From Fibrobacter sp. (GTDB lineage Bacteria; Fibrobacterota; Chitinivibrionia; Chitinivibrionales; Chitinispirillaceae), in NCBI GenBank assembly GCA_012519985.1, contig JAAYPC010000262.1:23947-87946 (forward strand): 64,000 nucleotides of DNA. Reading direction: 5' to 3'. The translations under genes were made by a program, and so were the position numbers. Below, one piece after another: positions 1 through 47,423 of this stretch; the stretch's first letter is position 1; every line of letters starts with the position of its first letter. The notes under the pieces are model-generated. The model saw only the letters and a program-made list of their open reading frames with translations, was not told the origin of the DNA and did no database searches.

Positions 1-1574
1 CGTGGAATCACACTGAATCTGCGCAACCCCAGACCAACAAGCAGCACTGTATGCAGAGGGTTTCCTGCCATTTCCCCGCAGATAGAGAGAGGCATTCCAT
101 TATCATTGGCGCACTTTATGGCATTCTGAATGATTCGCAGGAAAGCGGGTTCAATAGGATTGTACAGATAGTTTACCTTTGCATTATTGCGGTCTGCAGC
201 ACTGAGATACTGAATGAGATCGTTAGTACCAACCGAAGCGAAATCGATCTCTTTCATGAATGTTTCCATTTCCATTATGGCCAGTGGAACCTCAAAAAGG
301 ACTCCACACTTAGGCATTTTCATACCTAAATTCATGGCTACCTGAGCGATAACTGCCTTAGCCTCCAACCACTCCTGCAAAGTGGTAACCATAGGCATCA
401 TTATAGAATAATCGTGGCCAACACCTGCCTTCATGATTGCAGTTATCTGAGTTTCAAAGATATCTCTTCTTTCCAGAAATATCCGTATAGCCCTCCAGCC
501 CATAAATGGATTAAACTCCGCAGGCATATCAAAGAATTGAGGTACTTTATCTCCACCGATATCCATAAGGCGGATTACACAGTGTTTCTGTTTTGTTTTC
601 TCCAGAATTTTCTTGTAGTATTCAAATTGTGCCTCCTCTGAGGGCATCTCTTTTCTGTTCGACAGGAGGTACTCGGTGCGGACCAGTCCTATTCCATCAG
701 CGCCGAAATCATTTGCGTCATTCACATCTTCTGGTAAGGAGATGTTTGCCAGAACATCGATTTGAACCCCATCGGTGGTATAAACCGGCCTGCGCCACTT
801 GGTTTTCAGCATCTCAAAGGCTTTTTCATCGAATGCCTGTCTTTTGTATCTGCTTACAACTGCAGAGGCCGGTCGCACATAAACGACTCCTTTTTCTGCA
901 TCAACCAGGATGTGGTCTCCAGGTCTGATATTTTCAGCAATGTTTCTGATTCCAGATACAACCGGAATAGAATAAGAACGGGCAAGGATTGCAGCGTGAG
1001 AAGTTTTTCCACCACTGGCAGTAACAACAGCCTGAATTTTGGATTTATCGTAAGAGAGAATATCTGTGGGTGTAAAAGTTCTAAGCACAACCAGAACAAC
1101 CGGCTCCATGAAAGTTTTGGTTCTGCCATCATCCTGATAAAGATAGGAGATCAGTTTTTCGCAGATTTCTACCATATCACTACTTCGTTCTTTAAAGTAG
1201 GTAGTGCCGGCAGAATCAAAGCGCTTAATGAAATCATTGGAAACCAAGCGGATAGAAGACTCCAGATCGTAGAGTTTTGATGAAATGGTCTCTACAACCT
1301 GCCCTATAAAGGCAGGATCATCCAGAATATGTTCATAGATATTGAGTATGGAGACATCAACGGTGGAAGATCCACCAAGATCAGTAATGTATTGCCGGTA
1401 GTCTTTTTTAGCCCGTTCCCTGATCTCGTTAAAACGCATGATCTCATCGCCAACATCCTGCCTTGAGATAGAAACGGTAGAAGTTTGTTGAACCGCTCTT
1501 CCTACAAAATAAGCAGACCCCATACCCCAGCCAGATACCACAGGTATGCCAGTTAATTTCGATTCTTTTTTCAT
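1..1574 (-). CDS. ptsI: PTS enzyme I (phosphoenolpyruvate-protein phosphotransferase), 3' end cut by window edge
   Basis: Enzyme I transfers phosphate from PEP to HPr in the cytoplasm, the first step of the phosphotransferase system. About 524 residues are visible, reading from an ATG at 1574 off the left edge. Seen: an N-terminal GIPVVSGWGMGSAY segment, the phospho-histidine motif GGKTSHAAILARS, PEP-binding-barrel motifs (DGIGLVRTEYL, NPFMGWRAIR, SVGTNDLIQY) and the catalytic cysteine loop SICGEMAGNP. The start overlaps the stop of the upstream phosphorylase-like gene (ATGA), so the two are translationally coupled. No HPr gene is adjacent, which is where one is often found. All key residues are present, so it should be active. 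Confidence 0.95.
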   Translation of the reverse strand, partial: MKKESKLTGIPVVSGWGMGSAYFVGRAVQQTSTVSISRQDVGDEIMRFNEIRERAKKDYRQYITDLGGSSTVDVSILNIYEHILDDPAFIGQVVETISSKLYDLESSIRLVSNDFIKRFDSAGTTYFKERSSDMVEICEKLISYLYQDDGRTKTFMEPVVLVVLRTFTPTDILSYDKSKIQAVVTASGGKTSHAAILARSYSIPVVSGIRNIAENIRPGDHILVDAEKGVVYVRPASAVVSRYKRQAFDEKAFEMLKTKWRRPVYTTDGVQIDVLANISLPEDVNDANDFGADGIGLVRTEYLLSNRKEMPSEEAQFEYYKKILEKTKQKHCVIRLMDIGGDKVPQFFDMPAEFNPFMGWRAIRIFLERRDIFETQITAIMKAGVGHDYSIMMPMVTTLQEWLEAKAVIAQVAMNLGMKMPKCGVLFEVPLAIMEMETFMKEIDFASVGTNDLIQYLSAADRNNAKVNYLYNPIEPAFLRIIQNAIKCANDNGMPLSICGEMAGNPLHTVLLVGLGLRRFSVIP

Positions 1575-3979
1575 ATCACTTTCCAGATTTCCCGCGCATA
1601 TTCCAAAGTGGCTCTGTCCGAGGAGAAATACCCTGAACGTGCAATATTCAGAAGACAAGCTTTGGACCACATTTGTTTATCAGCAAACAGTTGATCTATC
1701 GATTCCTGTTTCTTCACATAATCATCAAAATCAATCAGTACAAAATACCTGTCATTATCACGTAAAGATGAGATCAGTGGATAGATTGTAGAGCCATCTG
1801 ATAAAGAAGGTAAAAGACTTTCCAACAGTGAAAAAATGCTGGTTAAACGAGAATCACTCTGCAGATATTCCTGAGGCCGGTAATCGTCAATATTGTCCAG
1901 CTCTTCAGAGCTCTTCCCAAAAAGAGAAATATTGTCCGAGCCAACTTTCTCTGCCAATTCCAGATTAGACCCACATCTGCTGGCAATTGTATAAGTACCA
2001 TTAAAAGCAAATTTCATATTGAATGTGCCACCAGCTTCAAATGATGCGGTTGCAATCTGCTCTGAAAGATCAGCAGATGGGAGAATTTTTTCAGCCCAGC
2101 TCATTCCAAAATTTGGAATAAACACGATCTGCATCTGTTTACTTGCTTCAGGATCATTATTAACCAGATTTTTTGTAACATTAATAAGATGAATGACCTG
2201 TTTTGCCAGAAAATCGGACGGTGAAGCCTTCCCTGCAAACACATGAAGTCTTCTGCACTTTAAGGTTACTCCTGATTTAATCTGCAAGTATCTGTGCAGA
2301 ATGTATAAGACATGCAAAACCTGACGTTTATAGGGATGAATCTTACCACTATGAATATCAAACATAACCGAACAATCATCAACATTTGCCAGAGAAGCCT
2401 CATTAAGGCAGGAGGCTAAATGCTCTTTAGCCTGAAATTTAATTTTTTGAAGGGAGAGCTGATACTGCGAATCATCCGCAAATTTCTCCAGTTCCGCCAA
2501 AGCCAGAGGTTCTGTGATCCATCTTTGGCCAATAGCAGAGCAGATCAGCTCAGATAACCTGGGATTAGCACACATTAACCAGCGACGGTGAGTTATCCCT
2601 GCAGTCTTGTTACAGAATTTTTCCGGAAAATGAGTAAAATAAGCCGGGAAAAGTCTTCGCTTTAAAATCTCAGACTGTTCCCTGGAAACCCCATTTACAG
2701 AAAATGAGCCCATTACGGCCAGATTGGCCAGACGAATCCTTTTAACTTCACCTTCTTCGATAAGAGACAAATCTCTTATTACATCTGCATCACCACTATA
2801 ATTCTGCCGAATATCTTCCAGGTGTATCTGGTTTATATCAAAAAGTATCTGCATGTGCCGAGGCAGGATCTGAGCCACTTTGTAGACTGGCCAGGCTTCA
2901 AGGTTTTCTTTATGAACGGCAGTGCTGGTGTAGGCAAAAACATTTTTGGTGATTTTCCAGGCTTGATCCCAGGAGAGATTTTCTTTGTCTATAAGAATTC
3001 TCATCAGCTCCGGAATAGCCAAAGCACAACGGCTCCCGTTTAACTGAATAACCACTTTTTTATCCAGTTCGGTAATATCCTTGTTAGATATTTTGTAACG
3101 GCGAATTATATCCTGAAGTGCGGCACTGACAAAGAAAAACTGCTGTTTCATCCGCAGTTCAGTCACCCTGCGTATGTCTTCTTCCGGAAAAAGCACTTTG
3201 GTGATACGGCCAAGCTGAGACTTCTCCTCACAAGCCCTGACATAATCCCCGTGGTTGGCATAATCTGGAAGAAACTCTTCAGAAGCACGTGCGGACCACA
3301 ATCGCAGAGTATTGACTATATTGTTGCGGTAGCCAGGTATAGGAACATCATAGGGTATTGCATGAACCTGCTCAGATGCTTTCCACTCATAAGGCCCCAG
3401 CGAACAGAGCGGATCTTTGGGGTAACACTCCCCCGCAAAACCTACACTGCAAGAATACTCAGGTCTGACAATTTCCCAGGGATGTCCCCTATGCAGCCAA
3501 TCGTAAGGACGTTCCACCTGAATTCCATTTTTGATGTCCTGCTGAAATTGGGCATAATCATAGCGCAATCCATAGGCCATGGCAGGCAATCCCAAAGTAG
3601 CCAGAGATTCCAGCGAACAAACTGCCAGACGCCCCTTGCCCGCATACCCCAGCTCGAAATCATCTTCCTGTGCATAAAGCTCTTCTATAGAATAACCCAA
3701 AGAACGAACAGCGGTGGTAAATGGGGACTCAATGCCCAGGTTAACCATATTATGGCGCAGATTTTTGCCAAAAACGTACTCCATGGACAGGTAGTACACT
3801 CTCTTAACATTTTGCTCACGATAATTATTTGTAGTCTTGATCCAACTATCAACCAATTCACTTCTGACAGCATAAGCCAGAGCCATATATTTGTCATATG
3901 AAGTGGCAGAAGTGTCATCTTTGGCTAGAAAATAACGGAGATAACGGTAAAAAGCATCCTTGAGGTCCTTACTTTCCAT
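1571..3979 (-). CDS. Glycogen phosphorylase family protein, probably catalytically dead
   Basis: This is a full-length GT35 (GlgP/MalP) homologue of 802 residues from the ATG at 3979, which has a GGGAG ribosome site 6 bases upstream; a GTG at 3997 is less likely. The fold is clear along its whole length (VYYLSMEYVFG, SLATLGLPAMAYGLRYDY, NTLRLWSARAS, ADLSEQIAT). Active-site motifs are altered: GNGGLGRL is GYAGKGRL (111-118), LNDTHP is LNGSRC (313-318), TNHT is TSTA (351-354; the catalytic-site histidine is lost), VKRIHEYK is SGKIHPYK (544-551), TLDGANVE is SRCGSNLE. The PLP lysine in NMKF (about 656) remains. Family knowledge predicts loss of phosphorolysis. It overlaps ptsI by 4 bases, suggesting a regulatory or scaffold role tied to the PTS (inference). 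Confidence 0.85.
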   Translation of the reverse strand: MESKDLKDAFYRYLRYFLAKDDTSATSYDKYMALAYAVRSELVDSWIKTTNNYREQNVKRVYYLSMEYVFGKNLRHNMVNLGIESPFTTAVRSLGYSIEELYAQEDDFELGYAGKGRLAVCSLESLATLGLPAMAYGLRYDYAQFQQDIKNGIQVERPYDWLHRGHPWEIVRPEYSCSVGFAGECYPKDPLCSLGPYEWKASEQVHAIPYDVPIPGYRNNIVNTLRLWSARASEEFLPDYANHGDYVRACEEKSQLGRITKVLFPEEDIRRVTELRMKQQFFFVSAALQDIIRRYKISNKDITELDKKVVIQLNGSRCALAIPELMRILIDKENLSWDQAWKITKNVFAYTSTAVHKENLEAWPVYKVAQILPRHMQILFDINQIHLEDIRQNYSGDADVIRDLSLIEEGEVKRIRLANLAVMGSFSVNGVSREQSEILKRRLFPAYFTHFPEKFCNKTAGITHRRWLMCANPRLSELICSAIGQRWITEPLALAELEKFADDSQYQLSLQKIKFQAKEHLASCLNEASLANVDDCSVMFDIHSGKIHPYKRQVLHVLYILHRYLQIKSGVTLKCRRLHVFAGKASPSDFLAKQVIHLINVTKNLVNNDPEASKQMQIVFIPNFGMSWAEKILPSADLSEQIATASFEAGGTFNMKFAFNGTYTIASRCGSNLELAEKVGSDNISLFGKSSEELDNIDDYRPQEYLQSDSRLTSIFSLLESLLPSLSDGSTIYPLISSLRDNDRYFVLIDFDDYVKKQESIDQLFADKQMWSKACLLNIARSGYFSSDRATLEYAREIWKVI

Positions 3980-4076
3980 ATTTCTCCCGAAATACACTCT
4001 GAAGTGTTTCGCACTCCCGGCGAAAAAGCTGAATATTAAATTCGATGTCTTTGTCTTCCGGAAAATCCTCCGGAAT
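3969..4076 (-). pseudogene. Possible 3' remnant or leader ORF ahead of the phosphorylase-like gene
   Basis: A minus-strand frame open from about 4124 to a TAA at 3969-3971 reads in protein-like fashion from the isoleucine codon at 4076 (35 codons, ending ...LQSVFREKYGK). It overlaps the downstream gene's start by 11 bases. No ATG, GTG or TTG is in frame, so it is either the decayed tail of a lost upstream gene or chance. No family recognised. Confidence 0.25.
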
Positions 4077-4348
4077 GGAGAGAAAGCATAAGTTTCGACA
4101 GTAACTTAAAATAAAAAAATAAAGCCGAAATCACCGTGCTTCGATGTAATTATACATTCATATTTAATTACAGTGCACTATAAAATATATTCCCGCTTAT
4201 AATGAGTTCAAAATAGTAAGCATATAATAATATGACACTTAAGGCTTATTTGCAGTTCTATTCAAGAACATTGGTCTAAAAAAATAAATCCATAAATAAG
4301 CTTGTTTTGTGCAGCTTACCAATTTATTTTAGACATTCAATAAATTCT
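4077..4348. other. Intergenic AT-rich stretch between the phosphorylase-like gene and tRNA-Ser
   Basis: Very AT-rich and gene-free. It must hold the promoter of the phosphorylase-ptsI operon on the minus strand and of the tRNA on the plus strand, but no -35/-10 pair stands out enough to name. No terminator-like hairpin was seen. Confidence 0.5.
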
Positions 4349-4436
4349 GGAGGGGTGGCCGAGTCGGCTTAAGGCACAGGTTTGCTAAACCTGCGTAGGG
4401 GTAACCCTACCGGAGGTTCGAATCCTCTCCCCTCCG
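4349..4436 (+). tRNA. tRNA-Ser (GCT anticodon)
   Basis: The sequence folds as a class II tRNA of 88 nt. Acceptor GGAGGGG pairs with CCCCTCC (4429-4435) with G as discriminator base. The anticodon stem CAGGT/ACCTG encloses the loop TTGCTAA with anticodon GCT, reading AGC/AGT serine codons. A long variable arm (around GTAGGGGTAACCCTAC) is present, as expected for tRNA-Ser. The T arm has loop TTCGAAT. No CCA is encoded. The 3' half overlaps the end of the convergent ADP-ribosylglycohydrolase gene. Confidence 0.97.
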
Positions 4437-5375
4437 AATATTCTCTCTGTTCTCAACAGCCTTCGAAATAAGCTTTTCTACCAGCACTCTGCCATTTTTT
4501 CCATTTTCCAGACTGCCAAGAAGCCAGGAGGGTATACGTTTATATCCCCAAAACGCCCCAGCAATAGCTCCAGTCATCGCGGCAATTGTATCGGTATCTC
4601 CTCCCATGGAAATAGCGAAAGTGAGGGAATCTTCAAATGATGACGGATTTCTAAGAAAAGAGTAGATTGCAGCAGAAACTGCATCCAGGGCATCAGCGCC
4701 ATTTCCAACCATCCTCACACTCTCATGGGCAGAAGCCTGATGTTTGAGAGCCCTGGCAACATCACCCAGCTTGATCTTATAAGCGCTCTCGATCTCTAAT
4801 TGATAAAAATGAGTAAACCAGTCTTCTGGTGAAACCTCGTTTAAAGCTAACAGCACGGCATAGCCCTGCAACACTGCACCCGAAATTCCATAAGGATGAG
4901 TATGAGTGAGACTGGAGCAAAGTTTTACCTGTTCTGTAAAATCCTCTATTGATTTGATGGAGAAGAAAGCGCTTATCGGTGCAACTCTCATAGCTGCGCC
5001 ATCACCAAAACTGCCCATTCCTCCATACAAACTTCTGGCAGCACTCTCTATGTGCTCTCCACTTCGCCACCGCTCAATCACCTCCAACATCCCTCCACTG
5101 TAATGCCGCCATGGAGAAAACCTCTTGAGAAAACGCTCCTTTAAAGATTCTTGAATTATCTCCCCATTTTCGACCATCTCTTCCAAAACCGAAATGGTCA
5201 TCTGGGTGTCATCAGTATATGTTACTGGAGGATGAGAGATAAAATAGTGAGAATCAAGCGAAGGAATCAAATCCGGTCCATAGCCTTCAAAGGATGCTCC
5301 CGCAGCATCACCAATCCAGGTTCCATAAAGCAAACCCCGGAGTTTATCTTCAGAATAGAGTAAATGTCTTTTCAT
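4407..5375 (-). CDS. ADP-ribosylglycohydrolase (DraG/ARH family)
   Basis: A 322-residue protein of the DraG/ARH family, which removes ADP-ribose from proteins or small molecules using a binuclear metal site. Metal-binding motifs are visible: GTWIGDAAGASFEG near residue 20, TYTDDTQMT near 53-61, and the C-terminal MGGDTDTIAAMTGAIAGA. A GGA ribosome site precedes the ATG. The final nine codons, ending in GEDSNLR, are antisense to tRNA-Ser, so the natural stop was probably lost and the frame now ends inside the tRNA. The target is unknown; no nitrogenase genes lie in the window, although NifA-like regulators and a PII protein occur 27 kb away. Confidence 0.85.
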   Translation of the reverse strand: MKRHLLYSEDKLRGLLYGTWIGDAAGASFEGYGPDLIPSLDSHYFISHPPVTYTDDTQMTISVLEEMVENGEIIQESLKERFLKRFSPWRHYSGGMLEVIERWRSGEHIESAARSLYGGMGSFGDGAAMRVAPISAFFSIKSIEDFTEQVKLCSSLTHTHPYGISGAVLQGYAVLLALNEVSPEDWFTHFYQLEIESAYKIKLGDVARALKHQASAHESVRMVGNGADALDAVSAAIYSFLRNPSSFEDSLTFAISMGGDTDTIAAMTGAIAGAFWGYKRIPSWLLGSLENGKNGRVLVEKLISKAVENRENIRRGEDSNLR

Positions 5376-24063: not shown

Positions 24064-24208
24064 GATTCTCTTATTACCTGAATTCTCGATTGTTTCTGAC
24101 TACACTCAATTCAGTTGCCGAAAAAGTTATGGGCCATCGGGCAAGCGGTTTTTTCCCTGACACTTTCCCCTGATCTCCGGTACTTTTTTTATGCGATGTC
24201 ATTTTTCT

Positions 24209-24608
24209 GTTTTCATGATGCCTTTCCTGTTTTCACGATGGCATTTTTCGTTTTCACGATGGCATTTCCCGTTTTCACGATGGCCTTTCCCGTTTTCAAG
24301 ATGGCCTTTTCCGTTTTCACGATGGCCTTTTCCGTTTTCACGATGGTCTTTCCCGTTTTCAAGATGGCCTTTCCCGTTTTCAAGATAGCCTTTCCCGTTT
24401 TCAAGATGGCCTTTCCCATTTACACGATGTCTCTTCCCATTTACACGATGTCTCTTCCCATTTACACGATGTCTCTTCCCATTTACACGATGCCCCTACC
24501 CTGTTTACACGATTGCATTTTCCGTTTACGCGATGTCTATTTCCGTTTACACGATGTCCCTTCCCATTTACACGACATCCCTTCCCTGTTCACATGATGG
24601 CTTTCGAT
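24209..24608 (+). repeat. Minisatellite of 19 units, 21 bp each
   Basis: Nineteen head-to-tail copies of a 21-bp unit. Units 1-10 follow GTTTTCACGATGGCCTTTCC (with C/A variation), and units 11-19 follow a second variant RTTTACACGATGTCTCTTCC. Units 1, 14 and 18 are 20 or 22 bp. The array translates as heptads (MAFPVFT on plus, GKAILKT on minus) but the off-size units break any single frame, arguing against a coding repeat. It lies between the thyX-like gene and the EPS operon promoter. Confidence 0.9.
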
Positions 24609-31343: not shown

Positions 31344-32903
31344 ATGCCAGCTCAAATAAAGACAGAACTCAGTTTTAATGGTTTGACCGCCCTTTATCAG
31401 ATTGCCCATTTTCTTGCCTCCGGTCAGGATCTTGAAGTGATAATGACCAAAATTTTAGAGATCCTTGAAAATAATGTAGGGATGAGTAGAGGGATGATTA
31501 CTATACTTAGCCCTAATAACGAGGAACTTGCTGTTGATGTAGCAAGGGGGATTTCTGAGAGCGACAAGAAAAAAGGCAAGTATCGTCCTGGAGAAGGGAT
31601 AACCGGCAAAGTGGTTGCTACCGGAAGACCAATTGCAATTCCGACTCTTAATCAAGAACCGACATTTCTTGACAGAACCGGAGCGCGCAAAGGGCTTAAC
31701 CATTCCGATCTTGCTTTTTTGTGTGTTCCAATCAAAACCGGTGACATGGTAATCGGAGCTTTGTCTGTAGATCGGGTTGCGGTGGAGGATGCAGTTACAC
31801 TGGAAGGTGAGCTCCGTTTTCTGGAAGCTGTGGCGGATCTAATAGCACAGGTAGTTCAGGTAAGAAGAAAAAACTATGACCGGATTCATGCTCTTGAAAA
31901 AGAAAATCTGGAACTTCGGCGCACACTGGAGGATAAGGGCAAACCAGATCTGATGATAGGTAACAGCAGTTCGATGCGTGAAGTATACCGTCAGATCGGG
32001 CAGGTTGCCCCTTCATTAACTACGGTTACCATACGTGGTGAAACCGGAACCGGTAAGGAACTGGTAGCCAGAGCTATTCATCAAAAAAGTCCCTGCAGCA
32101 AGGGGCCGTTTGTGGCTGTAAACTGCGCCGCACTTCCTGAATCCTTACTGGAGAGTGAGCTTTTTGGGCACGAAAAGGGTTCATTTACAGGTGCTACAGC
32201 CAGAAGAATCGGTCGTTTTGAAGCGGCTGATAATGGGACTTTGTTTCTGGATGAGATTGGAGAAATGTCGCTTTCTGCACAGAGTCGTCTTCTTAGAGCA
32301 ATACAGGAAAAGGAGTTCCAGAGAGTAGGCGGTTCTGAATCGATTCGGGTTAATGTAAGACTTATTTGTGCTACAAACCGGGATCTGGAAACTGATGTCA
32401 AAGAGAACCGTTTTAGAGAAGATCTTTATTACAGAATCAATGTTTTTAGCATCGCACTTCCACCGTTGAGGGAGCGGGGTGCTGATGTACTTTTACTGGC
32501 TGACTATTTTGTCAAAAAATACTGCCAGCTTCATGACAGAAATATCCAGAGGATCTCAACTCCTGCCATCGATATGCTTTCTGCTTATCACTGGCCTGGC
32601 AATGTCAGAGAGTTAGAAAATGTGATTGAACGGGCAGTAATCGTTGCCACTGCGGACGTGATCGAGGGTAAGGATCTACCCCCTACTCTTCAGATGAAGG
32701 ATGTCGCTTTGCAGGGTAAGCGGAACGATTCATTTGAGAATCTGGTAGCTGCATATGAACGCACCCTGATCTTGGATGCACTCAAAGACACCGGTGGAAA
32801 TCAGACAGAAGCTGCAAAAGTACTTGGAACCACAAAACGTATCATCCAGTATAAAATCAACAAATATCAGATTGATTGTTCTCGTTTCCGTCGCAGTGAA
32901 TAA
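31344..32903 (+). CDS. NifA-family sigma-54 activator 1 (GAF-AAA+-HTH)
   Basis: A 519-residue enhancer-binding protein. The N-terminal GAF domain (20-180) resembles NifA closely: [49 protein letters not shown]. The AAA+ domain has Walker A GETGTGKE, the sigma-54 contact loop as GSFTGA (a variant of GAFTGA), and Walker [11 protein letters not shown]. The C-terminal Fis-type HTH contains [20 protein letters not shown]. The GAF in NifA senses nitrogen or redox state via partners such as PII. No sigma-54 promoter is evident in front of it, unlike its paralogue. Confidence 0.9.
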
Positions 32904-33418
32904 TCCCGGAAGGCATTCGCAAATTTCCTGTTCTTAAACCCATATTGCCCATTAGACAGGGACTTAAATTAAGCCCGACCAGGCAAACCTGTTGGTTGCT
33001 CCGGTAAGCCCTCAGTGACAGTCAATTCGGTGCGTCCTCGCTCTCCATTACTTTGACGAGCCCTCGTTATCTGTCACTTCGACGAGCTTGCGAGGAGAAG
33101 TCTTTTCAATGGGACAAAAATTATGGGCCCGATCCACTCTGCCAGGTACAAAACCGGTTACTGTCTACTGGAAAATTGGGTTAAAAAAGCAACAGTTTTG
33201 TTCCTCTTTTTATCATCTTTGCTACAATTTTGTACCCATCAATCATCCTTCATCTCTTAACATGGATATTGATGCCCTTTTTTTATTCTATTTAGTCTTT
33301 TCTACTGAGCTGAAGATTAAATAAAAAATATGGCTCAAGCTTTGCATATATCCCCGCATGTACCGAACAAAACCGATAGCATTTTTCCGGGCCTGTGATG
33401 TAACTGTTAACCATCATT
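32904..33418. other. Gap between the two activators
   Basis: About 515 bases without a gene. A GACGAGC-rich stretch near 33030-33100 with partial dyads looks like degraded intergenic repeat DNA. The open frame at 33088-33324 has no ribosome site and no protein-like composition. A sigma-54 promoter lies at its right end. Confidence 0.55.
33331..33346 (+). promoter_or_regulatory. Sigma-54 promoter of activator 2
   Basis: TGGCTCAAGCTTTGCA has correctly spaced GG and GC. Predicted start near 33358, about 60 bases before the second NifA-like gene. It suggests that activator 1 (or activator 2 itself) controls this gene. Confidence 0.7.
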
Positions 33419-34993
33419 ATGACATGTAATCATTTTGAAGATTCCAAAATCAATCTGAGTTTTAATGGCTTGATGGTGCTCTATCAGATTGCCAGAATCC
33501 TTAACACAGGAGGACCATTAAGCAATTGTATGATGGAAGTCCTTCGGGCATTGCAGGATCTGGCATCGATGAACCGGGGAATGATATCTCTGCTCAATGC
33601 CTCTGGTGATAAATTGACCGTAGATGTAGCATATGGAATACCCGATTATCTGCGGCAAAAAGGTAAATACCGATTGGGTGAAGGAATTACCGGTCAAGTA
33701 GCAAAAACTGGACAAGCAGTAATTATCTCCAGACTTGAAAATGAACCAGCTTTTCTTGATCGTACCGGAGCGAGAAAGAATTTAAAGCTTTCTGATCTGG
33801 CGTTTCTATGTGTACCAATAAAGATTTCTGATAAAGTAATTGGAGTCCTTTCGGTAGACCGGGTAGTATTGGATCAGGATGTTACTTTAGAGAATGAGTT
33901 ACATTTTCTGGAGGCAGTATCGAATCTGATATCACAGGTAGTTGAACAGAGGCGTCGACAGACCGAACAAATATCTGCACTGGAGAATGAGAACAAAGAA
34001 CTCAGGCAGATACTGGAAAACAGAGGGCGTCCTGACCAGATGATTGGCAACAGCAATTCCATGCGTGAAGTATATCGTTACATAGCTCAGGTTGCTCCCT
34101 CTACTACAACGGTGCTTATCAGAGGAGAAACCGGAACCGGTAAAGAGTTAGTGGCACGTGCCATACACCAGAAAAGCGCTCTTCGTGAAGGGCCTTTTAT
34201 CGCAGTAAACTGTGCTGCACTTCCTGAGTCTCTGCTGGAAAGTGAGTTGTTCGGACATGAGAAGGGAGCCTTTACAGGAGCACTCAGTACCAGAATTGGC
34301 AAATTTGAAGCGGCGCAGAATGGTACGCTCTTTCTGGATGAGATCGGTGAGTTGAGTCTGAGTGCACAGGGTCGGCTTCTCAGAGCGATTCAGGAGAAGG
34401 AGTTTCAAAGAGTAGGCAGTATGGAAAATATCAGGCTCAATGTGCGGCTGATCGCTGCTACCAATCGCAATCTGGAAAAAGACGTGCAAGAAAAACGGTT
34501 CAGAGAGGATCTGTTTTACCGTCTGAACGTGTTTACAATTGTTTTACCTCCTTTGAGAGAAAGAGGTGCAGATATACTCCTTCTTTCAGATCACTTTGTA
34601 AGAAAGTATTCGAAACTTCACATGAAACAGGTGGAAAGGATCTCTACCGGGGCAATCGAACTGCTTTCTTCTTACAACTGGCCTGGTAATATAAGAGAGT
34701 TGGAGAATGTGATCGAGCGTGCTGTATTAGTTTGTGAAGATAATGTGATAAAGGGTCACGATCTTCCCAGAATTCTTCCGCAGACAAACAGGATAAAAAG
34801 TTCAATCAGGAAATCCGGTACATTTGAAAACCTGGTAGCCTCTTATGAGAAAGAGCTTATCATAGAAGCTTTGAAAGACTGTAAAGGCAATCAGACAAAT
34901 GCTGCAAAACTTCTACAGACCACCAAAAGAGTTATTCAGTACAAAATCGACAAATATGGGATAGATTACCGCAAATACCGCAAAAGTGCGTGA
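33419..34993 (+). CDS. NifA-family sigma-54 activator 2 (GAF-AAA+-HTH)
   Basis: A 524-residue paralogue of activator 1, closely alignable end to end. GAF signature [19 protein letters not shown]; Walker A GETGTGKE; canonical GAFTGA loop; Walker [12 protein letters not shown]; Fis-type [23 protein letters not shown]. The canonical loop and its own sigma-54 promoter suggest a cascade with activator 1. It lies 533 bases before amtB, which also has a sigma-54 promoter, so ammonium uptake is a likely target. No clear ribosome site was identified. Confidence 0.9.
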
Positions 34994-35526: not shown

Positions 35527-36942
35527 ATGGTAAAGCTAAGTAAAGGAGCTACCTTGCTTTTGGTAGCATCTGCGGGTACCATATTAGCTGATGATGGAAC
35601 CAGCTATAATATGGTAGATACTTTATGGGTATTGATAGCAGCATTTCTGGTGTTTTTCATGAATGCCGGTTTTGCTTTTGTAGAAAGTGGTTTCTGCCGT
35701 GCCAAGAATGTAGTTAATATTCTGGCCAAAAACTTTATAGTCTTTGCAATTGCAGCTGTAGCCTATTGGGCTATAGGCTACGGATTTATGTTTGGAAATG
35801 GAACCATAATTGGAACCGATTCTTTTCTGGTAAATGAGACTGCAAACAGTCCGGTAAGCAATATACCTCCATTTGTTTTTTTCTTTTTTCAACTTGCATT
35901 TGCCGCGGCAGGGTGTTCCATAATTTCAGGAGCAGTAGCAGAGCGGATTAAACTGATCTCTTTCTTAGTATTTGGGACACTGATGGTGGCATTCATCTAT
36001 CCATTGACAGGACACTGGATCTGGGGAGGCGGCTGGCTTTCAGGGCTTGGATTTTATGATTTTGCCGGCTCTACTGCGGTTCATTCGGTTGGAGGCTGGT
36101 GTGCACTTACCGGTATTATTCTTCTGGGGCCCCGTATTGGTAAATACCGCAAGGATGGCTCGCAGCATGCAATACTGGGCCACTCCATTCCTCTGGCTAC
36201 GCTGGGTGGTTTTATTCTATGGCTAGGATGGTTTGGATTCAATCCGGGAAGCCAGCTTGCCATGGATGCTAATGTTCCACGGATTGCCTTAACCACTGCA
36301 CTGGCATCCTGTACCGGAATTCTGGGAGCAATGATTACATCATGGCTTTCCAGAGGTAAACCTGATCTTTCCATGATAATAAATGGCTGTCTGGCAGGAT
36401 TGGTGGCAATAACCGCTCCTTGCGCAGTAGTCACTCCGGTTGGTTCGGTGATTATAGGCTTAATTGCCGGAATAATTGTGGTATTCTCAGTATATACCTT
36501 TGATAAATTTCAACTTGACGATCCAGTTGGAGCGACATCTGTTCACCTTGTCAATGGTATCTGGGGCACATTGGCTGTAGGTCTCTTTGCCTCACCAAAA
36601 TATTTCGATGGTAAAGCCGGTCTTTTTTACGGAGGTGGAGCTGCACAATTAGGAATCCAGTTGTTAGGTGTTCTGTCTGTTGCAGTGGCTATACTGATTG
36701 GTTCATTTTTGCTCTGGAGTATCATCAAAGCAGTTTTCGGATTAAGAGTATCACGAGAAGAAGAAATTGGTGGACTTGATGTTGGTGAAATGGGGCTGGA
36801 AGGATACAGTGGATTCCAGATTTTCACCACCGAAGATATCAGCCCATTAACTACAAATGAACCAACTAAGAATGCAACATCATTTAAGGAGGTAAGAAAT
36901 GAAACTGGTAGTGGCAGTTATTCAGCCAACAAAGCTGCCTGA
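35527..36942 (+). CDS. amtB: Ammonium transporter
   Basis: A 471-residue Amt/Rh channel with a signal-like N-terminus and about eleven membrane helices. The pore histidines lie in [13 protein letters not shown] and [15 protein letters not shown], and [16 protein letters not shown] is the family segment near the start. It passes ammonium across the inner membrane and is gated by GlnK. A GGGAGG ribosome site precedes the ATG. The last 44 bases overlap glnK, giving a long cytoplasmic tail ending SYSANKAA. Sigma-54 promoter upstream. Confidence 0.97.
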
Positions 36943-46815: not shown

Positions 46816-47283
46816 TTATTCAATATATTTATTTTCACTTTTGATAATGATATCCATAAACTGCTCGGCAGAGTTGGCATTCATCAACTTTTTTCTGACA
46901 TCCTCATAAGACATGATGCGCGAGAGAGATGAGAGTATATGAGTGTGTTCCGCTGAAGTGTTCATCGGGGAGATCATCATAAAAAGCAGATGAACCGGTT
47001 GTTCATCGATGGCATTGAACTCAATGCCATTTTTATGGCGGGCTGCAACCATATAAAGACGATCTATGCCGGAAATTCTGGCATGTGGTATGGCAATTCC
47101 ATAGCCAATTCCTGTTGACATGTCGTTCTCACGTTCCAGAATTTTCTGTGATATGTCATCCCCATCCTGCAACCCGTGCAATGAAGCCATAAAACGGGCC
47201 ATCTGTGTGAGCACATCCCGTTTATCGACACTGTTAAGGTCAATGAGAATGGCGTTTTTCTGAAGAAGATCCTGAACTTTCAC
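46816..47283 (-). CDS. PTS EIIA domain protein (EIIA-Ntr/fructose type)
   Basis: About 155 residues from the GTG at 47283, which has AAGGA 6 bases upstream; a TTG at 47289 lacks spacing. It is a single PTS_EIIA_2 domain with the phospho-His in YGIAIPHARISGID and LLFMMISPMNTSAEHTHILS. It would receive phosphate from HPr. Stand-alone members often have regulatory (nitrogen, potassium) roles. With ptsI at the left edge, it is the second PTS part in the window; no EIIB/C is seen. Confidence 0.9.
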   Translation of the reverse strand: MKVQDLLQKNAILIDLNSVDKRDVLTQMARFMASLHGLQDGDDISQKILERENDMSTGIGYGIAIPHARISGIDRLYMVAARHKNGIEFNAIDEQPVHLLFMMISPMNTSAEHTHILSSLSRIMSYEDVRKKLMNANSAEQFMDIIIKSENKYIE

Positions 47284-47423
47284 GTACAATCCTTTGCTTT
47301 TTAGGTATAACTATCAAAAAGACCCTGAAATCTTTTAAAATCCCGTTTTTCAGTGAACTTCCAGAGTCAGCAATTCATCCAGTGATTATTCATCAGAGAA
47401 AGGGCTATAGAAGCATTATACCA

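Follow-up and report, generated by a model that had tools for sequence, protein, structure and literature searches.

What does a glycogen phosphorylase homologue do once its catalytic motifs have been replaced, and why does its gene run into that for enzyme I (EI) of the phosphotransferase system (PTS)? We examined both questions in a 64,000-nucleotide stretch of Fibrobacter sp. DNA, hereafter the window. The homologue, which we call pGP, is encoded on the minus strand at 1571..3979, in a frame that runs from an ATG at 3979 to a stop codon at 1573..1571. The initial annotation had described an intact frame of 802 codons but gave no strand; the frame is indeed free of internal stops. A Shine-Dalgarno-like GGGAG precedes the ATG (3984..3988, minus strand, by eye), and a promoter and terminator scan gave signal at background level. 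In a profile search, the 802-amino-acid product was identified as a GT35 (glycogen phosphorylase) homologue by TIGR02093 at 880 bits, and it is the only PF00343 match in the window genome. The family profile and fold extended over its full length, the structural matches of its model included the E. coli complex 9s8k, and K656 (2012..2014, minus strand) aligned with the pyridoxal phosphate (PLP) lysine, rabbit K680. Retention of the fold and of the PLP lysine, both claimed from the outset, is thereby confirmed.

Five motif changes had been listed in the initial annotation, and alignment to rabbit numbering recovered every one of them. All on the minus strand, they are GYAGKGRL for GNGGLGRL in the glycine loop (residues 111-118, rabbit 132-139; 3626..3649), LNGSRC for LNDTHP (residues 313-318; 3026..3043), TSTA for TNHT with loss of the H377 equivalent (residues 351-354; 2918..2929), GKIHPYK for KRIHEYK with the K568 and R569 equivalents changed and K574 kept (residues 545-551; 2327..2347), and SRCGSNLE for T(L/M)DGANVE (residues 667-674; 1958..1981). 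Beyond that list, we found N484→A, K568→G, R569→K, G677→F, and Y613→D, with the K574 and E672 equivalents kept. Additionally, the 280s gate is rewritten as FPEEDIRRV (residues 264-272; 3164..3190, minus strand), which is conserved in the 188-row set described below and not in a divergent family, f3.

We then followed an octet of residues (H377, N484, K568, R569, Y573, K574, E672, and K680) that we take to be the catalytic and phosphate site and whose invariance was tested on canonical rows. At these positions, the window protein (P0001) has T A G K Y K E K. None of the 34 full-length pGP copies from loci had a complete octet, versus 135/135 canonical rows; this set includes 5 rows from the further-eroded family f3 and leaves out the partial pGP of genomes G008, G011, G032, G036, and G038. 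In a wider set of 188 rows (29 from loci and 159 database proteins; 176 distinct sequences), the octet was complete in one, P0154, and deviated solely by R569→K in 26, while losses of H377, N484, K568, R569, and Y573 were each widespread among members. D339 was G in 186/188 rows and P342 was C in 183/188. The losses are thus shared clade-wide among relatives of the window protein, which rules out a sequencing or assembly error behind the motif changes. Judged from these residues, pGP is predicted to be catalytically inactive.

The initial annotation had called the active site stripped. The catalytic losses stand, but "rewritten" describes the site of the window protein and of its close clade better, because several new residues are nearly frozen there (G339, C342, A378, D613, S691, E283, D284, and R287), the PLP lysine is kept in 185/188 rows, and the octet of P0154 is whole. 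Even so, P0154 has lost other canonical-invariant residues (L136→K, D339→G, H341→R, P342→C, N376→S, T378→A, S674→C, and G675→S). The lasting PLP lysine and E672 (182/188) fit some remaining active-site role. Together with K574 (173/188) and W491 (188/188), they also fit a pGP that is an enzyme of altered or weak activity (another acceptor, another anion, or glucan transfer), not dead in at least part of the clade; the octets that deviate by a single residue, P0154, and the near-frozen residues, as expected of a new specificity, point the same way. We nevertheless consider such an enzyme rather unlikely, given the eight further changes in P0154, the five octet residues lost in so many members, and the five 21-residue stretches of greatest loss, which are all catalytic segments (a ranking only; those over catalytic loops come up to the shuffle limit without exceeding it).

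Family f3 bears on the same point. A diverged pGP (34-40% identity) is present there beside EI. It is the most eroded family, having lost most of the octet, K574 in 5/5 members and K680 in 3/5, yet its pairing with EI stays, which argues further against a retained enzyme activity. Neither the frozen residues of the main clade nor D339→G is common to f3, and the rewritten gate is therefore not a trait of all pGP. All six effector residues considered below are kept in f3 (5/5). Here, even the PLP lysine would seem dispensable, while the pairing with EI and the effector residues persist.

Is the gene merely decaying? Of 10 pairs, 7 had a pGP dS below 2 and gave dN/dS values of 0.037-0.142 (Nei-Gojobori; the pairs are non-independent, having genomes in common); the other 3 were saturated. 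These values and the full-length frames rule out a decaying pseudogene and uphold the earlier claim that pGP is maintained, by purifying selection. On trees pGP formed one group (SH-aLRT 100, quick method); the GlgP lineage from which it arose was not resolved, the branches being long. Across 20 matched genomes, mean identity was 0.572 for pGP, 0.690 for GlgP, and 0.701 for EI, and at 46 positions that we take to be the active site it was 0.714 in pGP versus 0.985 in GlgP. The protein evolves faster than GlgP by a median of 1.6-fold. One segment, residues 17-37 (rabbit 38-58, presumably the cap/alpha-2 segment; 3869..3931, minus strand), was more conserved in pGP than in same-genome canonical GlgP, with identity higher by 0.219 against a shuffle 95% limit of 0.117. 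The faster evolution, and the fact that the pGP and ptsI genes overlap or lie close, would suit a bystander remnant kept only for carrying the ptsI promoter and translational coupling. The low dN/dS over full-length frames, the clade-specific near-frozen residues, and the one segment more conserved than in GlgP make this very improbable.

The conserved segment is presumably a dimer-interface segment, and canonical GlgP sequences were obtained from 26 order genomes, so that pGP might instead be a regulatory subunit that pairs with the cell's own canonical GlgP in mixed dimers. This, too, seems improbable. Six of the 39 pGP genomes had no other phosphorylase match among the matches listed (completeness 97% for G000, 99% for G016, and 95% for G019, and less for G022, G033, and G034), and the gene link is to ptsI, with EI present at 0/6 of the canonical loci for which longer flanks were retrieved. 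A strict dependence of the pGP-EI pair on glycogen is weakened by G033, which holds the pair with no GlgA-family match above 26.8 bits and, among the matches listed, no phosphorylase besides pGP; because G033 is 90% complete, absence there is no proof. The window genome has two strong GlgA-type genes.

Next, we examined the pairing itself. Among the matches listed, pGP occurs in 39/40 genomes of the Fibrobacterota order examined. It lies directly upstream of ptsI, on the same strand, in all 35 order loci whose contig continues, and 4 further loci, outside this count, end at contig ends. The pairing therefore exceeds chance, and the glgP-like/ptsI pair that the initial annotation had proposed to look for elsewhere recurs across the order. 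In the window, the 5' part of ptsI occupies 3..1574 on the minus strand and continues to the left, to 583 amino acids (TIGR01417, 431 bits; cut-off, 342). The overlap of 4 bases noted earlier is exact: the pGP stop and the ptsI ATG at 1574 share ATGA (1571..1574, minus strand). A Shine-Dalgarno-like GGAAAG lies before ptsI within the end of pGP (1579..1584, minus strand, by eye). This arrangement suggests that the two proteins are translationally coupled and made in a fixed ratio.

The genes that flank the pair formed 16 groups on the upstream side (24 loci) and 15 on the downstream side (26 loci); a GTP-cyclohydrolase-like gene after ptsI on the opposite strand was common to 8/26 loci, and one upstream gene was common to 5/24. 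The pairing, as read from these loci, outlasts change of its flanking genes. The adjacency could reflect shared expression alone. We searched for the pair in this phylum and in 78 outside loci (of 80 in a contig scan; mostly canonical GlgP, none titled Fibrobacterota, with flanks of 0-8 kb, some very short). An adjacent EI was found at 0/78, and one EI-like open reading frame lay 2.6 kb off on the other strand. In a Fibrobacter-family genome (G090), a second phosphorylase on C65 (L131) is 33% identical; the EI-N match there is not adjacent but lies roughly 6.8 kb from it. We found no description of a phosphorylase-like/ptsI pair or of a GT35 pseudoenzyme in the open-licence PMC literature.

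In the partner EI, the active-site His and Cys are kept in the window protein and, together with the Arg and Asp that we take to be the PEP site, in 28/28 aligned EI (f3 not included). Among the matches listed, EI-N (PF05524) is present in 39/40 order genomes, with three matches in the window genome and a single match in ten genomes with a pGP-linked EI; in these ten, the linked EI is therefore likely the sole EI. EIIA_2 (PF00359) occurs in 40/40 order genomes among the matches listed, while profile searches for EIIC (PF02378), EIIB (PF02302), and EIIA-man (PF03610) each gave 0/40. EI, HPr, and EIIA are thus present without the searched EIIB and EIIC families, as in a permease-free regulatory PTS, HPr having been established for the window genome only. 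A stand-alone EIIA_2 protein in the window (46816..47289, minus strand; PF00359, 132.5 bits) is likely a downstream element of the relay that starts with EI. By eye, two of the three HPr genes of the window genome encode the phosphorylatable His and one does not, and one clusters with rpoN- and hpf-like genes. A search for HPr kinase gave no match in this genome, and its control also missed B. subtilis.

HPr offers another possible target. The initial annotation had invoked an E. coli precedent for HPr binding to glycogen phosphorylase, and the precedent is real, as stated in PMC5320558 and PMC11046441 and in the title of PDB entry 9s8k. With three HPr genes in the window genome, two of them for a phosphorylatable protein, pGP might bind phosphorylated or unphosphorylated HPr as a decoy or effector that acts on HPr and not on EI. 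We regard this as unlikely, since what is conserved is the link to the EI gene and all three HPr genes lie on contigs other than that of pGP.

To see what pGP might contribute, we turned to the effector site, with AMP and phosphate contacts taken from the Fig. 6 legend of PMC9081730 and Table 2 of PMC4161293. Those kept in pGP are D42 (34/34), R193 (34/34), D227 (33/34), R242 (33/34), R309 (34/34), and R310 (33/34); Y75, which contacts adenine, is not retained. Because the order's canonical GlgP also keeps R309 (26/26) and D42 (25/26), the residues were retained and not gained. R193, D227, and R242 are near-invariant in canonical rows (128/135, 133/135, and 134/135, respectively) and so may be structural. 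E. coli GlgP binds AMP, according to the title of PDB entry 9ukr.

We tentatively prefer, with less than even confidence, the reading that pGP is a noncatalytic, ligand-sensing partner that tunes EI at the head of a phosphorelay to which our searches could assign no sugar permease. The effector site that pGP retains between its subunits would bind a phosphorylated metabolite, either AMP-like or a sugar phosphate; the bound or unbound state would alter EI autophosphorylation or transfer to HPr, and that in turn would change EIIA phosphorylation. A broader version is somewhat more doubtful: that the pGP lineage is a dedicated sensor subunit of EI, using the old AMP-type site to read a phosphorylated metabolite and setting permease-free regulatory PTS flux across the order. 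Of the pseudoenzyme/ptsI reading with which this analysis began, the clade-wide residue loss, the purifying selection, and the conserved pair held up, and the word stripped did not; the inactivity, any binding of EI or HPr, and the role as sensor or scaffold are predictions.

If the preferred reading is true, evolution has parted the effector site of a much-studied allosteric enzyme from catalysis, leaving a pseudoenzyme, and the EI of a regulatory PTS has gained a built-in input. To our knowledge, the input sensed by EI in permease-free PTS is an open question. Among the best 120 of several thousand database matches, pGP-type proteins are named glycogen or starch phosphorylase, which probably leads to an overestimate of glycogen breakdown in these genomes. 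Because the group includes a cultivated species, Chitinispirillum alkaliphilum (PMC4814513), the idea is testable; the available part of that description has no occurrence of "PTS" or "phosphotransferase."

Compared with GlgP, MalP, and PYGM of GT35, pGP differs in its incomplete octet, in the rewriting of its 280s gate and of its glycine and H377 loops, and in its place beside ptsI at every testable locus, and it coexists with canonical GlgP in many genomes. It resembles the E. coli HPr-glycogen phosphorylase pair in tying a PTS protein to a phosphorylase; however, the E. coli enzyme is active and its partner is HPr, whereas pGP is predicted to be inactive and its gene partner is EI. EI-Ntr carries a GAF domain. 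The system is like the PTS-Ntr of Brucella (PMC2937029) in combining EI and HPr with EIIA while none of the searched EIIB and EIIC families is present, and in having an HPr gene near rpoN- and hpf-like genes, but it differs in that the window EI has no GAF domain in the 523 amino acids scanned and a pseudo-phosphorylase accompanies EI instead.

Rabbit numbering was taken from the PDB row of the alignment, in which the PLP lysine lands on 680, and eight residues (H377, N484, K568, R569, Y573, K574, E672 and K680) were taken as the catalytic set, with their invariance then checked in ordinary (canonical) GlgP-type phosphorylases. All 135 canonical rows carry the full octet, versus 0 of 34 full-length locus copies of pGP, the predicted catalytically dead phosphorylase homologue. 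The window copy, P0001 (1571 to 3979, minus strand), reads T, A, G, K, Y, K, E and K at these positions in the alignment, so that the initial annotation was right that the His377 equivalent is lost (T at 377) and the PLP lysine kept (K at 680); the losses are also common to its relatives (octet incomplete in 34/34), though graded.

Beside catalytic inactivity stands the rival that pGP is a changed enzyme. When the set was widened to 188 pGP sequence rows (29 locus copies and 159 database proteins; 176 distinct sequences), octet loss was graded, with R569 to K alone the most frequent state (26/188 rows), and the octet was complete once, in the protein P0154, which nonetheless carries L136 to K, D339 to G, H341 to R, P342 to C, N376 to S and T378 to A. 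Because new residues are near-frozen across the 188 rows (G339 in 186, S340 in 178, C342 in 183, A378 in 178, D613 in 187, S691 in 184, E283 in 180, D284 in 174 and R287 in 183), the alignment points to new constraint in the main pGP clade rather than decay. Copies from f3, the family with the most eroded pGP, lack most of these residues and retain D339 (5/5); K574 is lost in 5/5 and the PLP lysine in 3/5. The predicted structure of the f3 copy from genome G029 is phosphorylase-like (pLDDT 79.4, TM 0.88 to 0.90).

The 29 pGP rows formed one side of a branch (SH-aLRT 100), as did pGP plus f3 (34 rows) with a quick tree method that carries a long-branch warning. As claimed initially, pGP appears maintained and not decaying, with dN/dS of 0.037 to 0.142 in the seven pairs, out of ten compared, whose dS was below 2. 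A further rival makes pGP a regulatory subunit of GlgP. In 20 genomes containing pGP, GlgP and enzyme I (EI), the evolutionary rate of pGP was about 1.6 times that of GlgP or EI. In the trees, the canonical GlgP of G021 (locus L199) clusters with those of G035 and G036, not with that of its genus neighbour G020, and was possibly transferred or replaced. The top five 21-residue windows of conservation loss in pGP were all catalytic (rabbit 466-486, 668-688, 128-148, 366-386 and 557-577), and none passed the shuffle limit (-0.365 vs -0.366). Conservation was greater in pGP at rabbit 38-58 (+0.219; shuffle limit 0.117), the cap/alpha-2 segment.

For mammalian phosphorylase, a figure legend in PMC9081730 gives AMP/ATP contacts as D42', Y75, F195, D227, R242, R309 and R310, and a table in PMC4161293, for docked ATP, gives phosphate contacts as R193, D227, R242, R309 and R310. 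In pGP (n = 34), D42, R193 and R309 were present in 34 rows and D227, R242 and R310 in 33; the adenine contact Y75 was not conserved in the alignment. Canonical rows (n = 135) had D42 in 81, R193 in 128, D227 in 133, R242 in 134, R309 in 87 and R310 in 126. Judging from these alignments, the effector residues of pGP are retained, not gained, because canonical GlgP within the order has R309 in 26/26 and D42 in 25/26. All six were present in 5/5 f3 copies despite the losses of the PLP lysine and K574.

In a search of 167 genomes of the phylum, all P0001 matches listed with at least 48% identity fell within the window's order, where 33 genomes out of 40 had one. Adding f3 (34 to 40% identity, 5/5 genomes) and a partial copy in G038, absent from the P0001 matches listed, pGP occurs in 39/40; G003, 82% complete, alone among the 40 lacked it. 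Named relatives among the matches listed were Chitinispirillales/Chitinivibrionales MAGs and Chitinispirillum alkaliphilum; for clusters P0007 and P0013 the source gives the label Fibrobacter sp.

The glgP-like/ptsI pair that the annotation proposed to seek in other genomes was found: EI was the next same-strand gene in 35/35 testable loci of the order (29, 1 and 5 from three locus sets), with four loci cut at a contig edge (G008, G011, G018 and G036) outside this count. With longest frames, the gap ranged from -106 to +112 bases over 29 loci and was -4 in 9; in the window, with the true start, it is -4. EI was found at 0/6 canonical GlgP loci of the order and adjoining GlgP at 0/78 outside loci, none of them titled Fibrobacterota, where flanks were often short. 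Neighbouring frames fell into 16 groups upstream of the pair (24 loci; largest 5) and 15 downstream (26 loci); the biggest downstream group, with 8 members, is a GTP-cyclohydrolase-like gene encoded on the opposite strand. That pGP is a bystander is another rival reading. Because stepwise catalytic loss, a constrained effector pocket and subunit-interface segment, and constant EI pairing coincide, the favoured reading makes pGP a ligand-sensing partner of EI: it would be catalytically inactive, bind EI and sense a ligand.

Upstream of pGP in the window, ARAGORN called a tRNA-Ser (gct) at 4348-4437 (plus strand); an ADP-ribosylglycohydrolase gene (PF03747; 4407-5375, minus strand) overlaps this call with its 3' end. 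In L131 (G090:C65), from a Fibrobacter-family genome, a second phosphorylase, which shares 33% identity with pGP, lies about 6.8 kb from an EI N-terminal (EI-N) match on the same contig, which is possibly foreign. Elsewhere in the window, a tandem array at 24209-24575 (21-bp unit, 17.5 copies, 86% match) lies in a plus-strand ORF (24115-24597, 160-aa frame) and encodes a repeating FTMAFPV-like unit of about 7 residues.

EIIC (PF02378), EIIB (PF02302) and EIIA-man (PF03610), the three permease families searched, were found in 0/40 order genomes, and EIIA_2 (PF00359) in 40/40, often in multiple copies, many inside long frames. EI His, Cys and PEP-site residues were intact in 28/28 aligned sequences, f3 not among them. 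Given these results, the PTS of the order looks regulatory rather than transport-linked. Order-wide, EIIA_2 occurred as stand-alone copies and in frames of about 450 to 1100 aa (for example G000:C322:79492 and G000:C327:397, in the window's genome), with up to at least 10 matches per genome, apparently a large EIIA fusion set. At 31344-34993 and 35527-36942, two successive genes of the GAF + sigma-54 activator + Fis-type HTH type are followed by an ammonium transporter gene (Pfam), possibly a locus for nitrogen control alongside the PTS-Ntr-like relay of this genome. Since ten genomes with a pGP-linked EI (G007, G009, G010, G012, G013, G014, G023, G025, G028 and G029) have a single EI-N match listed, the linked EI is likely their sole EI.

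Another rival has pGP acting on HPr, as in E. coli. The window's genome has three HPr genes, and three EI-N matches among those listed. Its third HPr-family protein (L187:3472-3804, on G000:C90; 44.4 bits) is without the phosphorylatable histidine and is a possible pseudo-HPr. At L185 (G000:C322:1-9000) of the same genome, one HPr gene comes after an mlaD-like gene, with rpoN- and hpf-like genes close by and no EI, and in L213 (G063:C3:20000-34000), from a Fibrobacter-family genome, the genes run mlaD-like, HPr, EI; save for HPr in L185 and EI, these names were assigned by eye. In the window's order, it is pGP that seems to neighbour EI instead.
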